Origin: an uncultured Pirellula sp. | Lineage (GTDB): Bacteria > Planctomycetota > Planctomycetia > Pirellulales > Pirellulaceae | Direction: 5' to 3' | Length of the DNA: 64,000 bases | NCBI GenBank assembly: GCA_903892355.1 | Contig: CAITIE010000091.1 | Span: 310,001-374,000 of the forward strand | Part shown: positions 44,198 through 51,295 of the stretch, piece after piece | Position numbering within the stretch: the stretch's first letter is position 1 | How the letters are laid out: every line of letters starts with the position of its first letter | Notes under the pieces: model-generated | The model's database searches: none | Told to the model about the DNA's origin: nothing | What the model saw: the letters and a program-made list of their open reading frames with translations, nothing else | Position numbers and translations under genes: made by a program

Positions 44198-44620
44198 CTA
44201 CGAGTCGCAGAGCGCCCGGCTGGGGTTTGGTTCTTTCAGCAGGTCGCTAATCGTGGTTCCCCCGAGGGATTTTTCCATGTGTTGGATGCTGTCATCCACT
44301 CGACTGTGGAGAGAGCAAAGTCGCTTGCCATGCGACTTGAGTCCCAACGGGCAGAAATCGATTCGCTTGATAGGATCCACTGCGTTGATGACGTCGAGGA
44401 TTGTTAAGACTTCCGCGGAATGGGTCAAGGAAACGCCACCACCGATCCCACGTTGGAGAGATACGAGTTCCTTGCGTTGCAGTTCCTGGAGAATCTTGGA
44501 GAGATAAGCGACAGGAACTTTGGTCTTCTCCGCGATAACCGAGGTCTTTTGCGGTGTGCCTTCGTTGAGGGCAAGATGAGCCACTGCACGCAGTGCGTAC
44601 TCGACGGTCTGTGAAAACAT
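44198..44620 (-). CDS. Rrf2-family transcriptional regulator
   Basis: 140 residues. A winged helix runs from FSQTVEYALRAVAHLAL to SKILQELQRKELVSLQRG, with VIAEKTKVPVAYLSKIL as the recognition helix. After the typical GVSLTHSAEVLTILDVINAVDP stretch, it has cysteines in DFCPLGLKSHGKRLCSLH, two of the usual Fe-S ligand positions, so an iron-sulfur or redox-sensing role is possible; the third cysteine of NsrR/IscR is not clear. It is convergent with the sulfatase gene and lies beside the FHA-EAL gene in the same direction. Confidence 0.85.
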   Translation of the reverse strand: MFSQTVEYALRAVAHLALNEGTPQKTSVIAEKTKVPVAYLSKILQELQRKELVSLQRGIGGGVSLTHSAEVLTILDVINAVDPIKRIDFCPLGLKSHGKRLCSLHSRVDDSIQHMEKSLGGTTISDLLKEPNPSRALCDS

Positions 44621-44675: not shown

Positions 44676-45818
44676 TTAGCTTACCGGAACAAACTTTGAC
44701 GGGGGAGAGGGGCGGCCGAAGTAATAGCCTTGAGCGAGGGTGAAACCTAACTGGGCGCACACCTTCGCTTCGGCTTCTGTTTCGATCCCCTCTGCGAGGG
44801 CTTTTACACCTAGATCGAGAACAATTTGGACGAGGGAGCGGAGGACCTTAATCCTCTCGAGGGGGGCTTTGTCGATGTCTCGGATGAGTCCCATGTCGAA
44901 TTTTAGAACATCAGGTGGGGCGCTGCAGAGTTCGGCGAGTCGATTTTGACCGGCCCCGAAGTCATCGTAAGCGATTTGGATAGAGAGTGCTCGAAGTTCT
45001 TTACGGAGCTCGAACATCTCTTGGGGCTGTGTGATCGCTGCTTCGTGAATCTCGAGGGTGATTGGAATATTGGGTGCTAATTCCCGGACTTGGACCATCG
45101 AATCGATGAGCCCTGTGCGAGAGAGTTCGAGGGGGTGGGTATTGACGTAGAGTGCAGCGGGTTGCGGGAGAGACAATCCTTCCCGGATACCTTCCCAGCG
45201 TAGCATTTGGCTCAGTTCCACTTCCATGCTCAGTTTTGAGGCGGCTCCGAAGAGAGCGGCAGAGGTTTCGAGGCCGTACATCCGACTTCGAGCAAGAATC
45301 TCATAGCCGAGGGTCTTGGAATCGGAGAGGCGGATAATAGGCTGGAAGAATGGAGTTACCAATCGCTTTTCCATCAAGCGGTCGAATTGAACCAACGCGA
45401 GGGCTTGATCGCATAGGTCTTCACATACGGTATTGATGGCAGACGCGTGGGAGTCTTTTTTCAGGCGGAAGGCAAAGTCCGCAAACTGGAGCATATCTTC
45501 TTCGTTGAGATCGCATTCCCCCTTGACTCGACGACCGTTGACATAGGTACCGTTGGTACTCTCTCGATCGACCACTACCAGCTTTCCATCGTGAAGAATG
45601 AGATCGGCATGATGGCCTGAGACGGTCTTCGACGGGAGTTGCAAGCTACATCCGACTTTACGGCCGATCGAAAAGGGCATTGGATGGATGACGGTCAGGT
45701 TGTCGGTGGTTTGTTGGCCGACGCTGGCAAGAATCCAGACCGACCTGTTTTCTCCCACGCTGAATCGCCGGGCAATTGACGACAAAGGAGTTCTCATGGA
45801 GGAGGGAGGAGTGCTCAT
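44676..45818 (-). CDS. FHA-domain protein with C-terminal EAL (c-di-GMP phosphodiesterase) domain
   Basis: 380 residues from ATG 45818. The N-terminal FHA domain (about 30-118) has PFSIGRKVGCSLQLPSKTVSGHHADL and STNGTYVNG, the phosphothreonine-binding signature. The EAL domain (about 140-375) has the substrate-binding and metal residues EIL (in place of EAL), N in VNTHPLEL, E in LEIHEAA, DDFGAG, LKFDMGL, and EGIETE, and the final QGYYFGRP; so phosphodiesterase activity is plausible. FHA domains read Thr phosphorylation. A Ser/Thr kinase gene lies in the divergent operon, so a kinase-to-c-di-GMP link is an attractive idea. Confidence 0.88.
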   Translation of the reverse strand: MSTPPSSMRTPLSSIARRFSVGENRSVWILASVGQQTTDNLTVIHPMPFSIGRKVGCSLQLPSKTVSGHHADLILHDGKLVVVDRESTNGTYVNGRRVKGECDLNEEDMLQFADFAFRLKKDSHASAINTVCEDLCDQALALVQFDRLMEKRLVTPFFQPIIRLSDSKTLGYEILARSRMYGLETSAALFGAASKLSMEVELSQMLRWEGIREGLSLPQPAALYVNTHPLELSRTGLIDSMVQVRELAPNIPITLEIHEAAITQPQEMFELRKELRALSIQIAYDDFGAGQNRLAELCSAPPDVLKFDMGLIRDIDKAPLERIKVLRSLVQIVLDLGVKALAEGIETEAEAKVCAQLGFTLAQGYYFGRPSPPSKFVPVS

Positions 45819-46120
45819 CTCGCCGGACTTCTGTTCAAAAAGGATACAGCATTGGGCTTGGAAGTAGTCGATCGGACATCCTCGCTGTGGAAGCCGACGG
45901 ACCTTCGCGCATGGGAAACGTAGGTTATGAAATCGGCACAGAAAGGGAGTGAACTGGGATGGCAATCCGATATTTCTCGGAATAAACGGCACGTTAAGTT
46001 TGTTCGTGCAGGCTGTTCCTTTCGTAGCCGATTATGAAACCGAGTCGGAGTCGATTCGCAACGATGATCATTTCGATGGTAACGGTTGTACCATCTTTAA
46101 CGCCGTGCACGGAGGTGCCC
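45819..46120. other. Divergent promoter region between FHA-EAL and the AAA+ gene
   Basis: 302 bp with no convincing gene. The GGAGG ribosome binding site for the plus-strand AAA+ gene is at 46111-46115. No clear promoter consensus or operator was found by eye. Confidence 0.5.
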
Positions 46121-47833
46121 ATGAGTTCGTTTTTGAACATGCGCGATACGATGGCCTTGGACAATCCTGTGCTGCCAGCGGTCCTCAACACAGATGCGTT
46201 TTGGCCCTTTGAGCCGAAGACCCTCGAAGAGTGCGGCGTCTCCGAGATCGTGATCGAATCGATCATGCTGCAGATTTTCTTAAACGTCGGCACCTTGACC
46301 GGGAGGAATCTCAGTGACCGGATGAAGATTCCTTTTCCGATCGTTGAGCAGCAGCTGGGGCAGTTGCGGATGCGTCAACTGATCACGCATGCAAGGCCAG
46401 CGCCGCTGAATGATTTTTATTACAGCGTCACGGAAAGCGGCCAAAACCGCGCATTCCATTATCAGAAATCGATGTCGTATTCGGGCCCTGTTCCCGTGCC
46501 CTTGATGGATTACGTCTTGAGCGTTGAGGCACAAGCTGGGTGTTTTGAGCCGATCACGGAAAACCAGCTTCGCGCTGCGCTGTCCAATGTTACATATGAC
46601 CCGCAATGGCTCGATTTTCTCGGTCCTGCGGTGAATAGCAATTCGGGGGTGTTTTTGTACGGTCCCCCAGGAAACGGCAAGACCACAATTGCAAAGTGCT
46701 TACCAGCGTGCCGTGGACAAGACATCTGGATCCCGCATGCGATTATCGACGACGGGATGATCATCAAATTCTACGATGCGACATATCATGTCGGATCGAC
46801 CAATAAGTCGACCAATGATCGGGTCATGGCCAATCAGGAACACGATTGTCGATGGGTTCGCGTACGGCGTCCCTCCGTGGTCGTTGGTGGTGAATTGACG
46901 ATGGACAGTTTAGAAATCCGTCATGATCCTCGGAGCAATACATGCGAAGCCCCATTGCAACTCAAGAGCAATTGCGGATGTTTGCTGATTGATGACTTTG
47001 GCCGACAGCGGATTGCTCCCGCGGAACTGCTGAATCGCTGGATCATCCCACTTGAGAATCGCGTTGATTACTTGACGTTACCCACGGGTAAAAAAATCTC
47101 GGTTCCGTTTGAGCAGATCGTGTTGTTTTCGACCAATTTGGATCCGGAATCGTTGGTGGATGAAGCGTTCCTGCGACGTGTACCATTTAAGATTCAAATC
47201 GCGGATCCAAGCGTCGAAGAGTTTACCGAACTGTTTCGTGCCGCTTGCGAATCGATGGATATCGTCTGGCGGCCCGAGATCATCGATCGAATGATCGACA
47301 CGCATTATCGGAAATTAGGCAGGTCATTCCGACGTTGCCATGCTCGGGATCTGCTTCATCAAATCCAGTGCTTGGCGGCTTACCGAGGTGAGCGTTGTGA
47401 ACTGCGAAATGAGTTCATCGATCAAGTTTGCCGGAATTACTTTGGCTCAAACAATGTTTTAGATAAAAGCAATAATAAGGCCGCCGAGCTGGATGAAGCC
47501 GGAAATGGTAGAAACGAAAATCCGATCAATTTAGCCGGGGAGGGGACGCAGGTTCTGGCTGCGGTAGCCCCTGTGCCATCGAGTACACCACTCACCAGCG
47601 CGCTGAACGTGTCGAGTCGTTCAGGGGTTGGCGGGAATGGAGGCTACAAACCTTCTGCACCGAAACCATCGGTAGCGAGTACACCGTTTGGAATTTCAGA
47701 GATTCTCGGTGAGATGGCACCTGAAGGCAAGGTACGTCCCGTTCCTGCTGGGCAAATCCCGCGACCAACCAATACGCAACTTCCACCTGTGTCGCCGAAT
47801 TCGCCGACTACTAACGATCGCCCAACGAGGTAA
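46121..47833 (+). CDS. AAA+ ATPase with winged-helix N-terminus, partner of a kinase-tubulin protein
   Basis: 570 residues from ATG 46121 (GGAGG, 5-nt spacer). The N-terminal 40-120 region looks like a winged helix (VIESIMLQIFLNVGTLTGRNLSDRMKIPFPIVEQQLGQLRMRQLI). The AAA+ core has Walker A GPPGNGKT (181-188), Walker B CLLIDDFGRQRI (287-298) and a sensor-like IVLFSTNLDPESLVDEAFLRRVPF. The ATPase has no recognised specific family. A Pro/Ser/Gly-rich C-terminal tail (about 470-570) looks disordered. The next gene, a kinase-tubulin fusion, starts 3 bp after its stop, so they form one operon and probably one complex. Confidence 0.82.
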   Translation: MSSFLNMRDTMALDNPVLPAVLNTDAFWPFEPKTLEECGVSEIVIESIMLQIFLNVGTLTGRNLSDRMKIPFPIVEQQLGQLRMRQLITHARPAPLNDFYYSVTESGQNRAFHYQKSMSYSGPVPVPLMDYVLSVEAQAGCFEPITENQLRAALSNVTYDPQWLDFLGPAVNSNSGVFLYGPPGNGKTTIAKCLPACRGQDIWIPHAIIDDGMIIKFYDATYHVGSTNKSTNDRVMANQEHDCRWVRVRRPSVVVGGELTMDSLEIRHDPRSNTCEAPLQLKSNCGCLLIDDFGRQRIAPAELLNRWIIPLENRVDYLTLPTGKKISVPFEQIVLFSTNLDPESLVDEAFLRRVPFKIQIADPSVEEFTELFRAACESMDIVWRPEIIDRMIDTHYRKLGRSFRRCHARDLLHQIQCLAAYRGERCELRNEFIDQVCRNYFGSNNVLDKSNNKAAELDEAGNGRNENPINLAGEGTQVLAAVAPVPSSTPLTSALNVSSRSGVGGNGGYKPSAPKPSVASTPFGISEILGEMAPEGKVRPVPAGQIPRPTNTQLPPVSPNSPTTNDRPTR

Positions 47834-47836
47834 TTC

Positions 47837-50800
47837 ATGAACAGGTCTCTCATACAACCTGGATACGAACCAATACCTGGGTACATACTCCGGAAGCAGG
47901 TAGGCGCTGGGGGATACGGAGAGGTTTGGCTTTCTGATGCTCCCGGTGGATTGCGCAAAGCGATCAAGTTCGTATTTGGTAACGTCGACGATAACCGCGC
48001 CACCACGGAACTTAAAAGTCTAAATCGCATCCGTAAGCTCAATCACCCATTTATTCTGTCCCTTGAGCGAGTTGAGATTGTCGAAGGTCAATTAGTCATC
48101 GTTACGGAGCTTGCACAAGGTTCCTTGCATGACAAGTACAACGAGTACCGACAAAAGGGGTTTATTGGCATCGCCCGAGATCGATTACTACGCTATCTCG
48201 GTGATGCTGCCGACGGATTGGATTTCTTGTGCCAAGAGCATGACTTGCAGCACTTGGACGTGAAACCTGGTAATTTGCTGCTGATCGCGGACCGGGTGAA
48301 GGTCGCCGATTTTGGGTTGATCAAGGAATTGGAATCCAATTCCCAGTCCATGATGAGCGGTATGACACCAACCTATGCAGCTCCTGAGTTGTTCGATGGG
48401 CGGCCGGGGCGTTATAGCGACCAGTACTCGTTAGCGATCGTTTACCAAGAGCTTTTGACAGGAACGCTACCGTTTCGAGGTAGGACTGCGGCTCAATTGG
48501 CGAACGAGCATCTGCACAAAGCGCCAAACCTGGAAGCAGTTCCATTGCTGGAACGACCAATTTTAAGCAAGGCCTTATCAAAAAAGCCACACATGCGTTA
48601 TGCGGACTGCCGTGAGTTTATTCGCGCCCTTACTGAAACGCGTCAAGAGGTCAAACTGGTATCGCCGGTAGCGGAAAACCAAAGTGCAGCAAGTCCGGCA
48701 AGTCCGGCGAATCGGGGTGCGGCTCGGCGATTTTCGGGGCGCAGTCTCCGTCAATCCACAAACGAGCAGATCGCCGAGGAAATGCCGAAATTCGAGAGGG
48801 AGATTCGTCCGATCGAATTGCAGACCGCCATGCCACCGATTGGCCCAGATCAGATGCACCGTTCCAAGCGGATCCTCTATTTGGGTGTTGGCGGGACGGG
48901 GGGCGTTGCAGTGCAACAGATTGTTGGACGGTGCGAGTATCGGGATTCCGATGAGACTCGTAGGGACGACAAGCGGACACAATGCCTTTATCTGGATACT
49001 GACAACAGCGCGATTGAGCGGATACTCGACGCGTCGCAGTCGATCCCATTACCCCATTCTGCGGTACTCCCGGTGAGACTGAACTCATCCCAGTACTATA
49101 GTCAATCGACGTCCCCAGACCTGCTCCGAATCAGCCGTCGATGGATCTACAACATACCCAGGTCACAGAAGACCGAAGGGGTGAGACCATTGGGATTGTT
49201 GGCGTTTTTAGACCAAGCAAGAACATGTTTCGACAGATTGGTGGACACGATTGATGAGTTGGTAGGGGAAGAGTCGGGGCGGCGGTCGTTGACGGTGTAT
49301 CTATTTGCATCGGCCCACGGTGGTACGGGAAGTGCCATGGTTTCTGAGTTGGGGTTCATGCTTCGCCAGATTTCCGCGGCGATGGAGATCGACCTTCACA
49401 TCGAATTACTGCTCCTTTGCGCGGATACATCGCAGCACCACAACGGCGATCTTGCTGCTGCGTCAGCATACTCATGTCTCAAGGAAATCAGCGAGCACTT
49501 TGAGTCGGGGGGGCTGCACACCCCGCTCGCTTCGCTTCCAGCATCGATTGCGGTGGATCAACCCCCGTTTGACTATGTCACCTTGGTCCCGGGTGGAGTT
49601 CTGGGCGAACAAGGAGATTGGCAATACGGGATTGATCAAGCGGTCGCGTACGCGTGGGGGCAGGATCATACGGATTTAGGCCATCGACTGGCTTGGATGC
49701 GATTGAGGGACAAAAAACGGCTCGATCAAGCCAATGATACCCAGGGGCTGCCATGGCTAGGAACGATCGGTTTGTCGTCGCTGGATCTGGCTTCCTTTTC
49801 CGATAGCGAGGGCTCTACCAATCGATGTAGCCTTCTTGCAATCCAGGCGTGGACCTCCCTCCTCAATCGAACGATTGCGGATTTAGGAGAGTTGGAGAAT
49901 AGCCATCCAAGCACCGAGAAAAAGCATGAGCAAACCGATTTGTTTTGGGTTTCGAATCTGTTTAGCGCCTGCGGTTGGGGAACTGATGCTTGGGTCAAGC
50001 AGCTGATGGCGACGATCTCCTCCCAAGGTGCAAAGGCGGAGAAGGAAAATCCGAACACTCCGATTTCTGGCGACAAAAAAACTGTCCAGAATTTCTTGGG
50101 CTCTCGTATTCTTGAGCAAGAGCAATCGGATCTCGATGCGATCGCCGAAAAGCTCGCGATCGATAACAACGTGGGAACGCAAGCGGTTTGCGATCTTTTA
50201 GAATCCTCACGAACGAGATTTTTTCAATGGATTGATCGGAATCTGCTCGGGGATACACACGGATGGATGCATTTTGGCATCATCATAAAGACCGTGCATG
50301 AGCGGTTGCTCGAAAATGCGAATCAACTCCTTGGAATCGCTGCCGATCATTGCAGTAAGCACGATCAGGTTCTCGAGACCGCATACGAAGGAAAAGACAT
50401 TATCTCCCAAGAAGTGGAGTTGAAGCTCGAAGCCCTCGCGCTGGAGGCTCGCATTTACTCGCTCGCTTCTCAAATGCTCAATCGCCTCGCCGGACATGTC
50501 AAGTACTTAGGTATATTGTGGGCGAATCACGCGAAACAGCTGTCCAAGGATCTGATGAGTTTGTCGCAACCCATCATGGACAAGATGCAAATCGCGGATA
50601 AGGACTTCAATTCGAAAACGCCGGACTTCGCAAAGCTAGGCAAGGACGCTTTTACTCATGCCGCTAGCTCCTACCTGCTCGATCATACCCACATCCGTCT
50701 TCTTCACGCATGGAGCATCAAGGAAGAATCAAAACGCTATAAGCGGAGTGAGCGCGTGGAACTGAAGGAATTGTTCCCTTGCGTCAAAGCAATTATTGAG

Positions 50801-51295
50801 GCGACGCAAAGGCAAAGCCAGTATGTGGAATCCTACAAGGAGGACGGCCCGGAGTCGCCGTCCACGACTCTGTCCTCGATGGGGTCGACGTCCGACGAGG
50901 TAAATCCTGCCAAGGGCGATGTCGGTGTGGCCGTGCTTCCATCGCAGAGAGTGGAGGCGAGCCCCAGCATTTTCCGAGTTCGTCGTATTCTTGAAGTCGA
51001 GAACGAAGACATCGGCGAGGAGTTCGATCGTGTCCGGTCGAAGCTTCTCGACTACGGTGGGTCGCTGCGCAATGTCTTAATGATTAGCGACGAGTTAAGC
51101 CAGTTGCTCCAAGATCGACACTTCAAACAAGCGCACGAAAAGAGTGCGACCGTGATTTCAGACCCCGTTTCAGCTCACTGTACCGTCTTGTCGGTCGGGG
51201 AACGGTTGGACCTAGACACGGTTCTCGAGCGGGTCTATCACCCGACTCCAAGCCTTCAGGAATTGGCCAATCGGATTAGTTGTCGTGTGGAATGA
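47837..51295 (+). CDS. Ser/Thr protein kinase fused to a tubulin-like (Tubulin_2) domain
   Basis: 1152 residues. Kinase domain about 15-268: glycine loop GAGGYGEV (23-30), Lys44, HLDVKPGN (Asp141, Leu instead of the usual Arg), DFG 158-160, APE 182-184. A Ser/Pro linker follows (about 275-340). Then a tubulin-like GTPase domain: RILYLGVGGTGGVAVQQI (348 onward) and LFASAHGGTGSAMVSELG (tubulin signature, about 494-500). The rest (about 520-1150) is helical and of unclear family. It is co-transcribed with the AAA+ ATPase. A role in a kinase-controlled polymer or complex is inferred; activity is not proven. Confidence 0.82.
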   Translation: MNRSLIQPGYEPIPGYILRKQVGAGGYGEVWLSDAPGGLRKAIKFVFGNVDDNRATTELKSLNRIRKLNHPFILSLERVEIVEGQLVIVTELAQGSLHDKYNEYRQKGFIGIARDRLLRYLGDAADGLDFLCQEHDLQHLDVKPGNLLLIADRVKVADFGLIKELESNSQSMMSGMTPTYAAPELFDGRPGRYSDQYSLAIVYQELLTGTLPFRGRTAAQLANEHLHKAPNLEAVPLLERPILSKALSKKPHMRYADCREFIRALTETRQEVKLVSPVAENQSAASPASPANRGAARRFSGRSLRQSTNEQIAEEMPKFEREIRPIELQTAMPPIGPDQMHRSKRILYLGVGGTGGVAVQQIVGRCEYRDSDETRRDDKRTQCLYLDTDNSAIERILDASQSIPLPHSAVLPVRLNSSQYYSQSTSPDLLRISRRWIYNIPRSQKTEGVRPLGLLAFLDQARTCFDRLVDTIDELVGEESGRRSLTVYLFASAHGGTGSAMVSELGFMLRQISAAMEIDLHIELLLLCADTSQHHNGDLAAASAYSCLKEISEHFESGGLHTPLASLPASIAVDQPPFDYVTLVPGGVLGEQGDWQYGIDQAVAYAWGQDHTDLGHRLAWMRLRDKKRLDQANDTQGLPWLGTIGLSSLDLASFSDSEGSTNRCSLLAIQAWTSLLNRTIADLGELENSHPSTEKKHEQTDLFWVSNLFSACGWGTDAWVKQLMATISSQGAKAEKENPNTPISGDKKTVQNFLGSRILEQEQSDLDAIAEKLAIDNNVGTQAVCDLLESSRTRFFQWIDRNLLGDTHGWMHFGIIIKTVHERLLENANQLLGIAADHCSKHDQVLETAYEGKDIISQEVELKLEALALEARIYSLASQMLNRLAGHVKYLGILWANHAKQLSKDLMSLSQPIMDKMQIADKDFNSKTPDFAKLGKDAFTHAASSYLLDHTHIRLLHAWSIKEESKRYKRSERVELKELFPCVKAIIEATQRQSQYVESYKEDGPESPSTTLSSMGSTSDEVNPAKGDVGVAVLPSQRVEASPSIFRVRRILEVENEDIGEEFDRVRSKLLDYGGSLRNVLMISDELSQLLQDRHFKQAHEKSATVISDPVSAHCTVLSVGERLDLDTVLERVYHPTPSLQELANRISCRVE

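Follow-up and report, generated by a model that had tools for sequence, protein, structure and literature searches.

The window analysed here is a 64,000-nucleotide stretch of an uncultured Pirellula sp. (GCA_903892355.1, contig CAITIE010000091.1, positions 310,001 to 374,000). The study was focused on three adjacent genes within it, encoding a Ser/Thr kinase fused to a tubulin-like domain (kinase-tubulin protein, KT) and its two partners, an FHA-EAL protein and an AAA+ ATPase. With high confidence, the three genes are functionally linked. The features of the locus are listed below by window position and strand, with the basis of each assignment in brackets (ORF, open reading frame; AF2, AlphaFold2; pLDDT, predicted local distance difference test; PDB, Protein Data Bank; c-di-GMP, cyclic di-GMP).

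44676..45992, minus strand: FHA-EAL gene (ORF; Pfam EAL 122 bits, FHA 59.3 bits)
44709..45383, minus strand: EAL c-di-GMP phosphodiesterase domain, residues 204-428, intact catalytic set (Pfam, alignment)
45483..45671, minus strand: FHA domain, residues 108-170, predicted phosphothreonine reader (Pfam, alignment)
45819..46120, no strand: putative shared control region of two divergent transcription units (from probable starts)
46034..47833, plus strand: AAA+ ATPase gene, Pro/Ser-rich tail (ORF; AAA motifs kept)
46244..46471, plus strand: winged-helix N-terminal domain (AF2 model residues 42-117, block pLDDT 84-97)
46661..46687, plus strand: Walker A motif, residues 210-218 (alignment)
47837..51295, plus strand: KT gene, 1152 amino acids, Ser/Thr kinase fused to Tubulin_2 (FtsZl1) (ORF, Pfam)
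47888..48640, plus strand: Ser/Thr kinase domain, residues 18-268, non-RD (HLD) (Pfam, alignment)
48863..49762, plus strand: tubulin-like GTPase core, residues 343-642, with T1 GVGGTGG, DTD and T4 GGTGSAM (Pfam, AF2, PDB)
49790..51022, plus strand: long helical low-confidence insert between two tubulin-fold parts, model residues 310-720 (AF2)
51023..51292, plus strand: conserved last 90 residues (AF2 block pLDDT 66-93)

The ORFs confirmed the gene positions given in a preliminary description of this DNA, together with the FHA-EAL gene facing AAA+ and KT and the gap of 3 bp between the AAA+ stop and the KT start. Judged by the lengths of the relatives' proteins, the longest ORF of FHA-EAL probably begins 58 codons too early and that of AAA+ 29 codons too early, the true starts being probably Met59 at 45818 and Met30 at 46121, respectively. 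Due to these later starts, the divergent control region would be about 300 bp long instead of 41 bp.

The conservation of the locus was determined with 119 genomes of the family and a class-wide set of 297 genomes; the window genome itself is 6.18 Mb in size. The named loci are the best 80 of 139 KT relatives, all retrieved with one peptide pattern. In the unsupervised clustering of the neighbours at these 80 loci, FHA-EAL was found at 60 and AAA+ at 59, followed by a REC-GGDEF-CBS gene at 14 and the next cluster at 10. At 30 KT loci of the family, FHA-EAL was present at 25 and AAA+ at 24, and the 13 other genes of the window were retained at 0-5 loci, mostly in the congener alone. The presence and absence of KT and FHA-EAL were concordant in 104 of the 119 family genomes (68 with both, 36 with neither, 10 with KT only, 5 with FHA-EAL only). 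The corresponding numbers by genus (68 genera) were 41, 19, 5 and 3, and those of KT and AAA+ over the 119 genomes were 69 with both, 40 with neither, 9 with KT only and 1 with AAA+ only. AAA+ matches below about 437 bits were dropped from the family counts to exclude a paralogue; among those retained, two matches (439 and 437 bits) could themselves be paralogues, without effect on the genome counts. In four of the six genera with mixed KT content, FHA-EAL was present in the KT-plus genomes and absent from the KT-minus genomes. Tubulin_2 was detected in 137 of the 297 class-wide genomes and 78 of the 119 family genomes. Within 8 kb of the 82 Tubulin_2 places of the family, AAA+ was located at 57, FHA-EAL at 54 and both at 48, with the second Tubulin_2 gene fragments of G639 and G645 and the second FHA-EAL fragment of G580 left out. 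The same locus was recognised on contigs of Rhodopirellula, Rubripirellula, Stieleria, Roseiconus and Roseimaritima, further off in Lacipirellula, Botrimarina and Adhaeretor, and in many planctomycete bins. The co-occurrence in related genomes on which the preliminary description had made its proposal depend was thus found, as FHA-EAL and AAA+ persisted with KT far more than the other neighbours did. The usual co-inheritance of KT, FHA-EAL and AAA+ indicates that they probably form one signalling machine.

FHA domains bind phosphothreonine through Arg, Ser and Asn residues, and the catalytic roles of the EAL residue set are established by EAL enzymology. The FHA site residues of the window protein (Gly110, Arg111, Ser125, His128, Asn147, Gly148, Asn152) were retained in 32 of 32 sequences and, in a larger set, in 59 of 60 across both forms of the module described below; the single miss (L125) belongs to an ORF cut by a contig end. 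The EAL set of the window protein, E-L-N-E-E-D-D-K-E-E-Q, is complete. FHA-EAL accounts for one of the only two EAL matches in the window genome, versus 11 GGDEF matches, and could therefore matter for whole-cell c-di-GMP; of the phosphodiesterase families, the count covers EAL and not HD-GYP.

The set is held together in three gene orders, one of which is common to most named loci with FHA-EAL. In form I, the form of the window, FHA-EAL is divergent from AAA+-KT or the genes stand in a row as AAA+, KT, FHA-EAL; in form II, FHA-EAL directly precedes KT on the same strand. The EAL residues were intact in form I (24/24, and 42/45 in the larger set, where one exception is a protein without its end and two differ at a single position) and degenerate in form II (8/8, and 15/15 in the larger set). 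The active and degenerate groups were told apart by profiles whose member proteins had been grouped according to locus type, and the locus type had been viewed together with the EAL residues beforehand. Since these profiles themselves carry EAL, the difference in residues is in part a product of the sorting, and the tie to gene order is the sole independent result on the forms: all 15 degenerate FHA-EAL genes directly preceded KT on its strand, as did one of the 45 active ones (L130). A REC-GGDEF-CBS-CBS gene was often divergent to the form II FHA-EAL gene, lying within 9 kb at 11 of the 15 named loci of this form, and the GGDEF site was degenerate in 20 of the 21 REC-GGDEF-CBS proteins. The divergent arrangement with a degenerate FHA-EAL was seen at L126, L129, L132-L134, L140, L151, L153, L162, L165 and L181. 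As the FHA site is conserved in form I and form II alike and the EAL residues are degenerate in one of them, it is the phosphothreonine reader that stays constant and the c-di-GMP enzyme that varies. Just past the FHA-EAL gene on its strand lies a gene for an Rrf2-type regulator (44198-44620), which was found at that position in only the congener L040 among the 30 family KT loci.

The fusion of a kinase and a tubulin-like domain in one protein of 1152 residues, claimed in the preliminary description, was supported by Pkinase and Tubulin_2 matches in Pfam. Pkinase covers residues 18-268, with 101.4 bits for the whole protein, and the Gly-loop, Lys, catalytic Asp, DFG and APE features of Hanks-type kinases are present. 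Across the KT alignment, Lys was conserved in 52/52, the catalytic Asp in 51/52 (one Asn) and DFG in 52/52 sequences. The HRD motif reads HLD in 52 of the 53 aligned sequences, with a gap in the remaining one. Beyond the closest relative, the identity to the window KT was 21-36%, with a single outlier at 14%.

The C-terminal half of KT is predicted to fold as tubulin, as had been proposed: Tubulin_2 (PF13809) matched residues 347-584 with 58.5 bits against a cut-off of 27, and the AF2 model matched tubulin structures. The generic Tubulin family (PF00091), which describes canonical FtsZ and tubulin, remained under its cut-off (19.1 versus 33 bits). The GTPase core was modelled with pLDDT 75-97 in 28 of 30 blocks and 64 and 72 in the other two; Gly352 of T1 and Gly495 and Gly496 of T4 were conserved in 53/53 sequences. 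Helices of low confidence follow the GTPase domain over model residues 315-661, in agreement with the helical extension of FtsZl1. The VIA structural alignment to CetZ 3zid_A covers model residues 1 to 801, and most of the last 90 residues of KT appear to complete the tubulin fold in the model, giving a predicted split fold. Among 61 sequences, R808 of this end was invariant and G732, G733, R736, E778 and R804 were nearly so. In canonical FtsZ and tubulin, a catalytic acidic loop, T7, lies between H7 and H8. No conserved acidic residue was found over the 61 sequences in the T7 loop as placed by the model, and model residues 289-291 of this region are a gap in 58-59 of them. Compared with the CetZ/FtsZ structures 3zid, 4b45 and 1w5a, KT differs by its long insert of helices and by the lack of a recognisable T7 acidic loop, at 16% identity.

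Our preferred reading, which we consider about as likely as not, is that the three genes encode a signalling module conserved in Pirellulales and working as follows. The kinase end of KT would phosphorylate Thr, either in KT or in a partner close to it. That phosphothreonine would be bound by the FHA domain of FHA-EAL, which would recruit the EAL end to KT, where c-di-GMP would be degraded locally. The tubulin end may bind GTP and act as an assembly switch or scaffold gathering the complex, from which the helical insert would extend outward. What the winged-helix AAA+ may disassemble and reset is this complex or an attached machine of the pilus or envelope; our guess for the cell process is pilus control or attachment to surfaces. 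Gene identities, co-inheritance and the intact FHA, EAL and kinase residues are observed and the tubulin fold is predicted, whereas all the physical interactions, the cell process and which partner controls which are inferred. The docking of FHA-EAL on KT-made phosphothreonine is proposed with moderate confidence and so is the local c-di-GMP hydrolysis in form I. Low to moderate confidence is given to the assembly of KT and, likewise, to the role of AAA+ as a remodeller.

Several observations weigh against this module. At 25 of the 82 Tubulin_2 places AAA+ was absent within 8 kb and at 28 there was no FHA-EAL profile match, some of these places being at contig ends. Five FHA-EAL-positive family genomes lack KT, and 10 KT-positive genomes had no FHA-EAL profile match; in at least one of the latter (G121, L059) FHA-EAL escaped a profile made from active-form proteins. 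Two of the six mixed genera break the pattern, genus 358 having FHA-EAL without KT and genus 384 KT without FHA-EAL. At 12 of the 80 named loci AAA+ was present and no FHA-EAL lay within 9 kb or up to the end of the contig; among loci with ample flanks this was so at 7 of 54. The genomes are tied by descent, so the co-occurrence counts are not independent and their significance is overstated; the turnover of the other neighbours at KT loci was therefore used as the control. The loss of the EAL residues in form II indicates that c-di-GMP hydrolysis is not needed everywhere.

Other arrangements of these genes were also observed. At the Rhodopirellula-type loci L104, L106, L107, L109 and L121, AAA+ and KT are paired and FHA-EAL is not within 9 kb. 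In G582, G643 and G605 (L061, L066, L067), KT and the KT-type AAA+ are far apart or on separate contigs. Two tandem KT genes, with no AAA+ or FHA-EAL in the stretch, were found in another planctomycete family (L080, L081, L085), and up to four Tubulin_2 matches were counted in genomes of the class. The congener G651 had no match to KT, FHA-EAL or AAA+, which suggests a joint loss of the three genes.

The AAA+ protein was under all Pfam cut-offs (best 17.2 versus 21.2). The AF2 model, covering residues 30-484, has a predicted fold which matches AAA+ proteins, and the Walker A, Walker B, sensor-1 and arginine residues were conserved in 37/37 sequences of the cluster, paralogues included. With the N-terminal winged helix modelled confidently, the earlier assignment of this protein held. 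Relatives were found in 75 plasmid records, and the 20 listed align with 86-96% of the protein at 32-36% identity. In all seven records opened, from the five genera Rhizobium, Ensifer, Sinorhizobium, Burkholderia and Salipiger, a Tad/Flp pilus locus contains or adjoins the relative; three of the seven are unannotated in that region and were interpreted with tblastn. In contrast, the related AAA+ of the window adjoins KT, outside any Tad locus. It is possible, if less probable than not, that the module regulates the Tad/Flp (type IVc) pilus, AAA+ being a relative of a Tad ATPase now away from the pilus genes and KT and FHA-EAL setting the pilus activity; this is compatible with the signalling module described above. 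Besides the plasmid loci, the presence of the Tad marker RcpC in 110 of the 119 family genomes is in line with such a role. However, RcpC is nearly universal in the family and therefore does not track KT, and neighbour clustering of the 80 named loci revealed no recurrent Tad gene or cluster near KT. The relation is also distant, a paralogue occurs in the same genomes, and the records come from five genera only. The sole RcpC match of the window genome is on contig C75, which is not the KT contig. The AAA+ paralogue (about 45% identity; e.g. G000:C17:13520-14767, L071) is widespread in the family, including genomes without KT, and its neighbours were not conserved at six loci examined.

A slightly less probable alternative is that FHA-EAL is mainly an adaptor, in which FHA reads phosphothreonine, EAL serves as a c-di-GMP sensor or contact surface, and the output is achieved by protein contact. 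The constancy of the FHA residues, the loss of the EAL residues in 15/15 form II proteins and that of the GGDEF site in the REC-GGDEF-CBS proteins are all as expected for an adaptor. The full catalytic set kept in the window's form, however, is left unexplained by selection on a mere scaffold.

A bolder version of the signalling module, which we regard as unlikely, is a self-phosphorylating tubulin. GTP-driven assembly of KT would bring its kinase ends close together, so that they phosphorylate each other in trans, and FHA-EAL would be drawn to the resulting phosphothreonines as a moving or localised c-di-GMP sink in a budding cell devoid of FtsZ. AAA+ would sever or disassemble the polymer in the way spastin or katanin acts on microtubules, the insert within the tubulin fold would be an arm displaying the kinase and docking sites, and in the second form the enzyme pair would have become non-catalytic partners.

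Planctomycetes divide without FtsZ, according to the main text of PMC10632474. PF00091 had no match in the window genome, the same search being positive in 13 of 14 control genomes. As KT is the sole Tubulin_2 protein of the genome and has a predicted tubulin fold, a replacement of FtsZ by KT in budding division was considered. It is improbable: KT is lacking in 41 of the 119 family genomes, one congener included, the T7 acidic motif is unrecognisable, and the Planctopirus essential-gene paper (PMC10632474) contains neither 'tubulin' nor 'kinase' in its main text. Still less credible is that the genes are neighbours by descent alone, with no common function. The single gene order shared by most named FHA-EAL loci would suit this; in contrast, the other neighbours were mostly replaced over the same divergence, the set is retained in three orders, and the losses often coincide. 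An anti-phage defence system, suggested by matches of the kinase to the PADLOC kinases MAD6 and PD-T4-6 and a weak match of AAA+ to IetA, is the least probable, as the kinase matches span the kinase part only and the make-up of the locus is stable over many genera.

The preliminary description had called the locus an undescribed system, which stands in part. The kinase-FtsZl1 fusion in Planctomycetes was reported in 2010 by Makarova and Koonin, with four members having an N-terminal kinase (PMC2875224, main text), and is repeated in PMC9871819; in PMC11032199, the tubulin-like domain is the commonest among the domains found solely in cytoplasmic kinases. A reviewer remark printed in PMC2875224 also mentions a c-di-GMP phosphodiesterase (diguanylate phosphodiesterase) beside FtsZl1 in Pirellula staleyi. 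By contrast, a search that had supplements, including the neighbour lists of PMC2875224, and subscription papers outside its reach revealed no report of the conserved module that includes AAA+, of an FHA domain in the phosphodiesterase, of the two forms, of the relation to Tad loci or of the split fold. Among the matches listed, none dealt with an FHA-EAL protein, or with AAA+ next to FtsZl1, in Planctomycetes. KT resembles FtsZl1, as described in the main text of PMC2875224, in Tubulin_2 above the cut-off, the T1 and T4 loops and the helical extension. The context given there consists of vWA, P-loop GTPase, OmpA and separate kinases, whereas the constant partners of KT are FHA-EAL and a winged-helix AAA+; the C-terminal part is described there as lacking tubulin similarity, whereas in the KT model the tubulin fold includes most of the final 90 residues. 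The vWA domain, an operon partner of most FtsZl1 members and not a defining one, was absent from the five other window proteins scanned with Pfam, and no extra neighbour cluster exceeded 10 of the 80 loci, where the neighbours were Pfam-scanned in part.

The nearest precedent known to us for a Ser/Thr kinase, an FHA protein and a tubulin relative in one path is the mycobacterial PknA-FipA (FhaB)-FtsZ circuit (PMC3989709), which was counted in favour of the signalling module of KT, FHA-EAL and AAA+. It consists of three separate proteins with a canonical FtsZ, whereas the kinase and tubulin are fused here. To our knowledge, neither an EAL protein nor an AAA+ takes part in the mycobacterial circuit.

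We know of no tested function of FtsZl1 proteins since their description in 2010. The constant partners of known biochemistry, a kinase, a phosphothreonine reader, a phosphodiesterase and an AAA+, reduce the FtsZl1 question to a few direct tests in cultured Pirellulales, and the active and degenerate EAL forms serve as a natural built-in control. If the proposed module is true, Ser/Thr phosphorylation and c-di-GMP would be joined in one complex, and a tubulin relative would organise second-messenger signalling in bacteria devoid of FtsZ.

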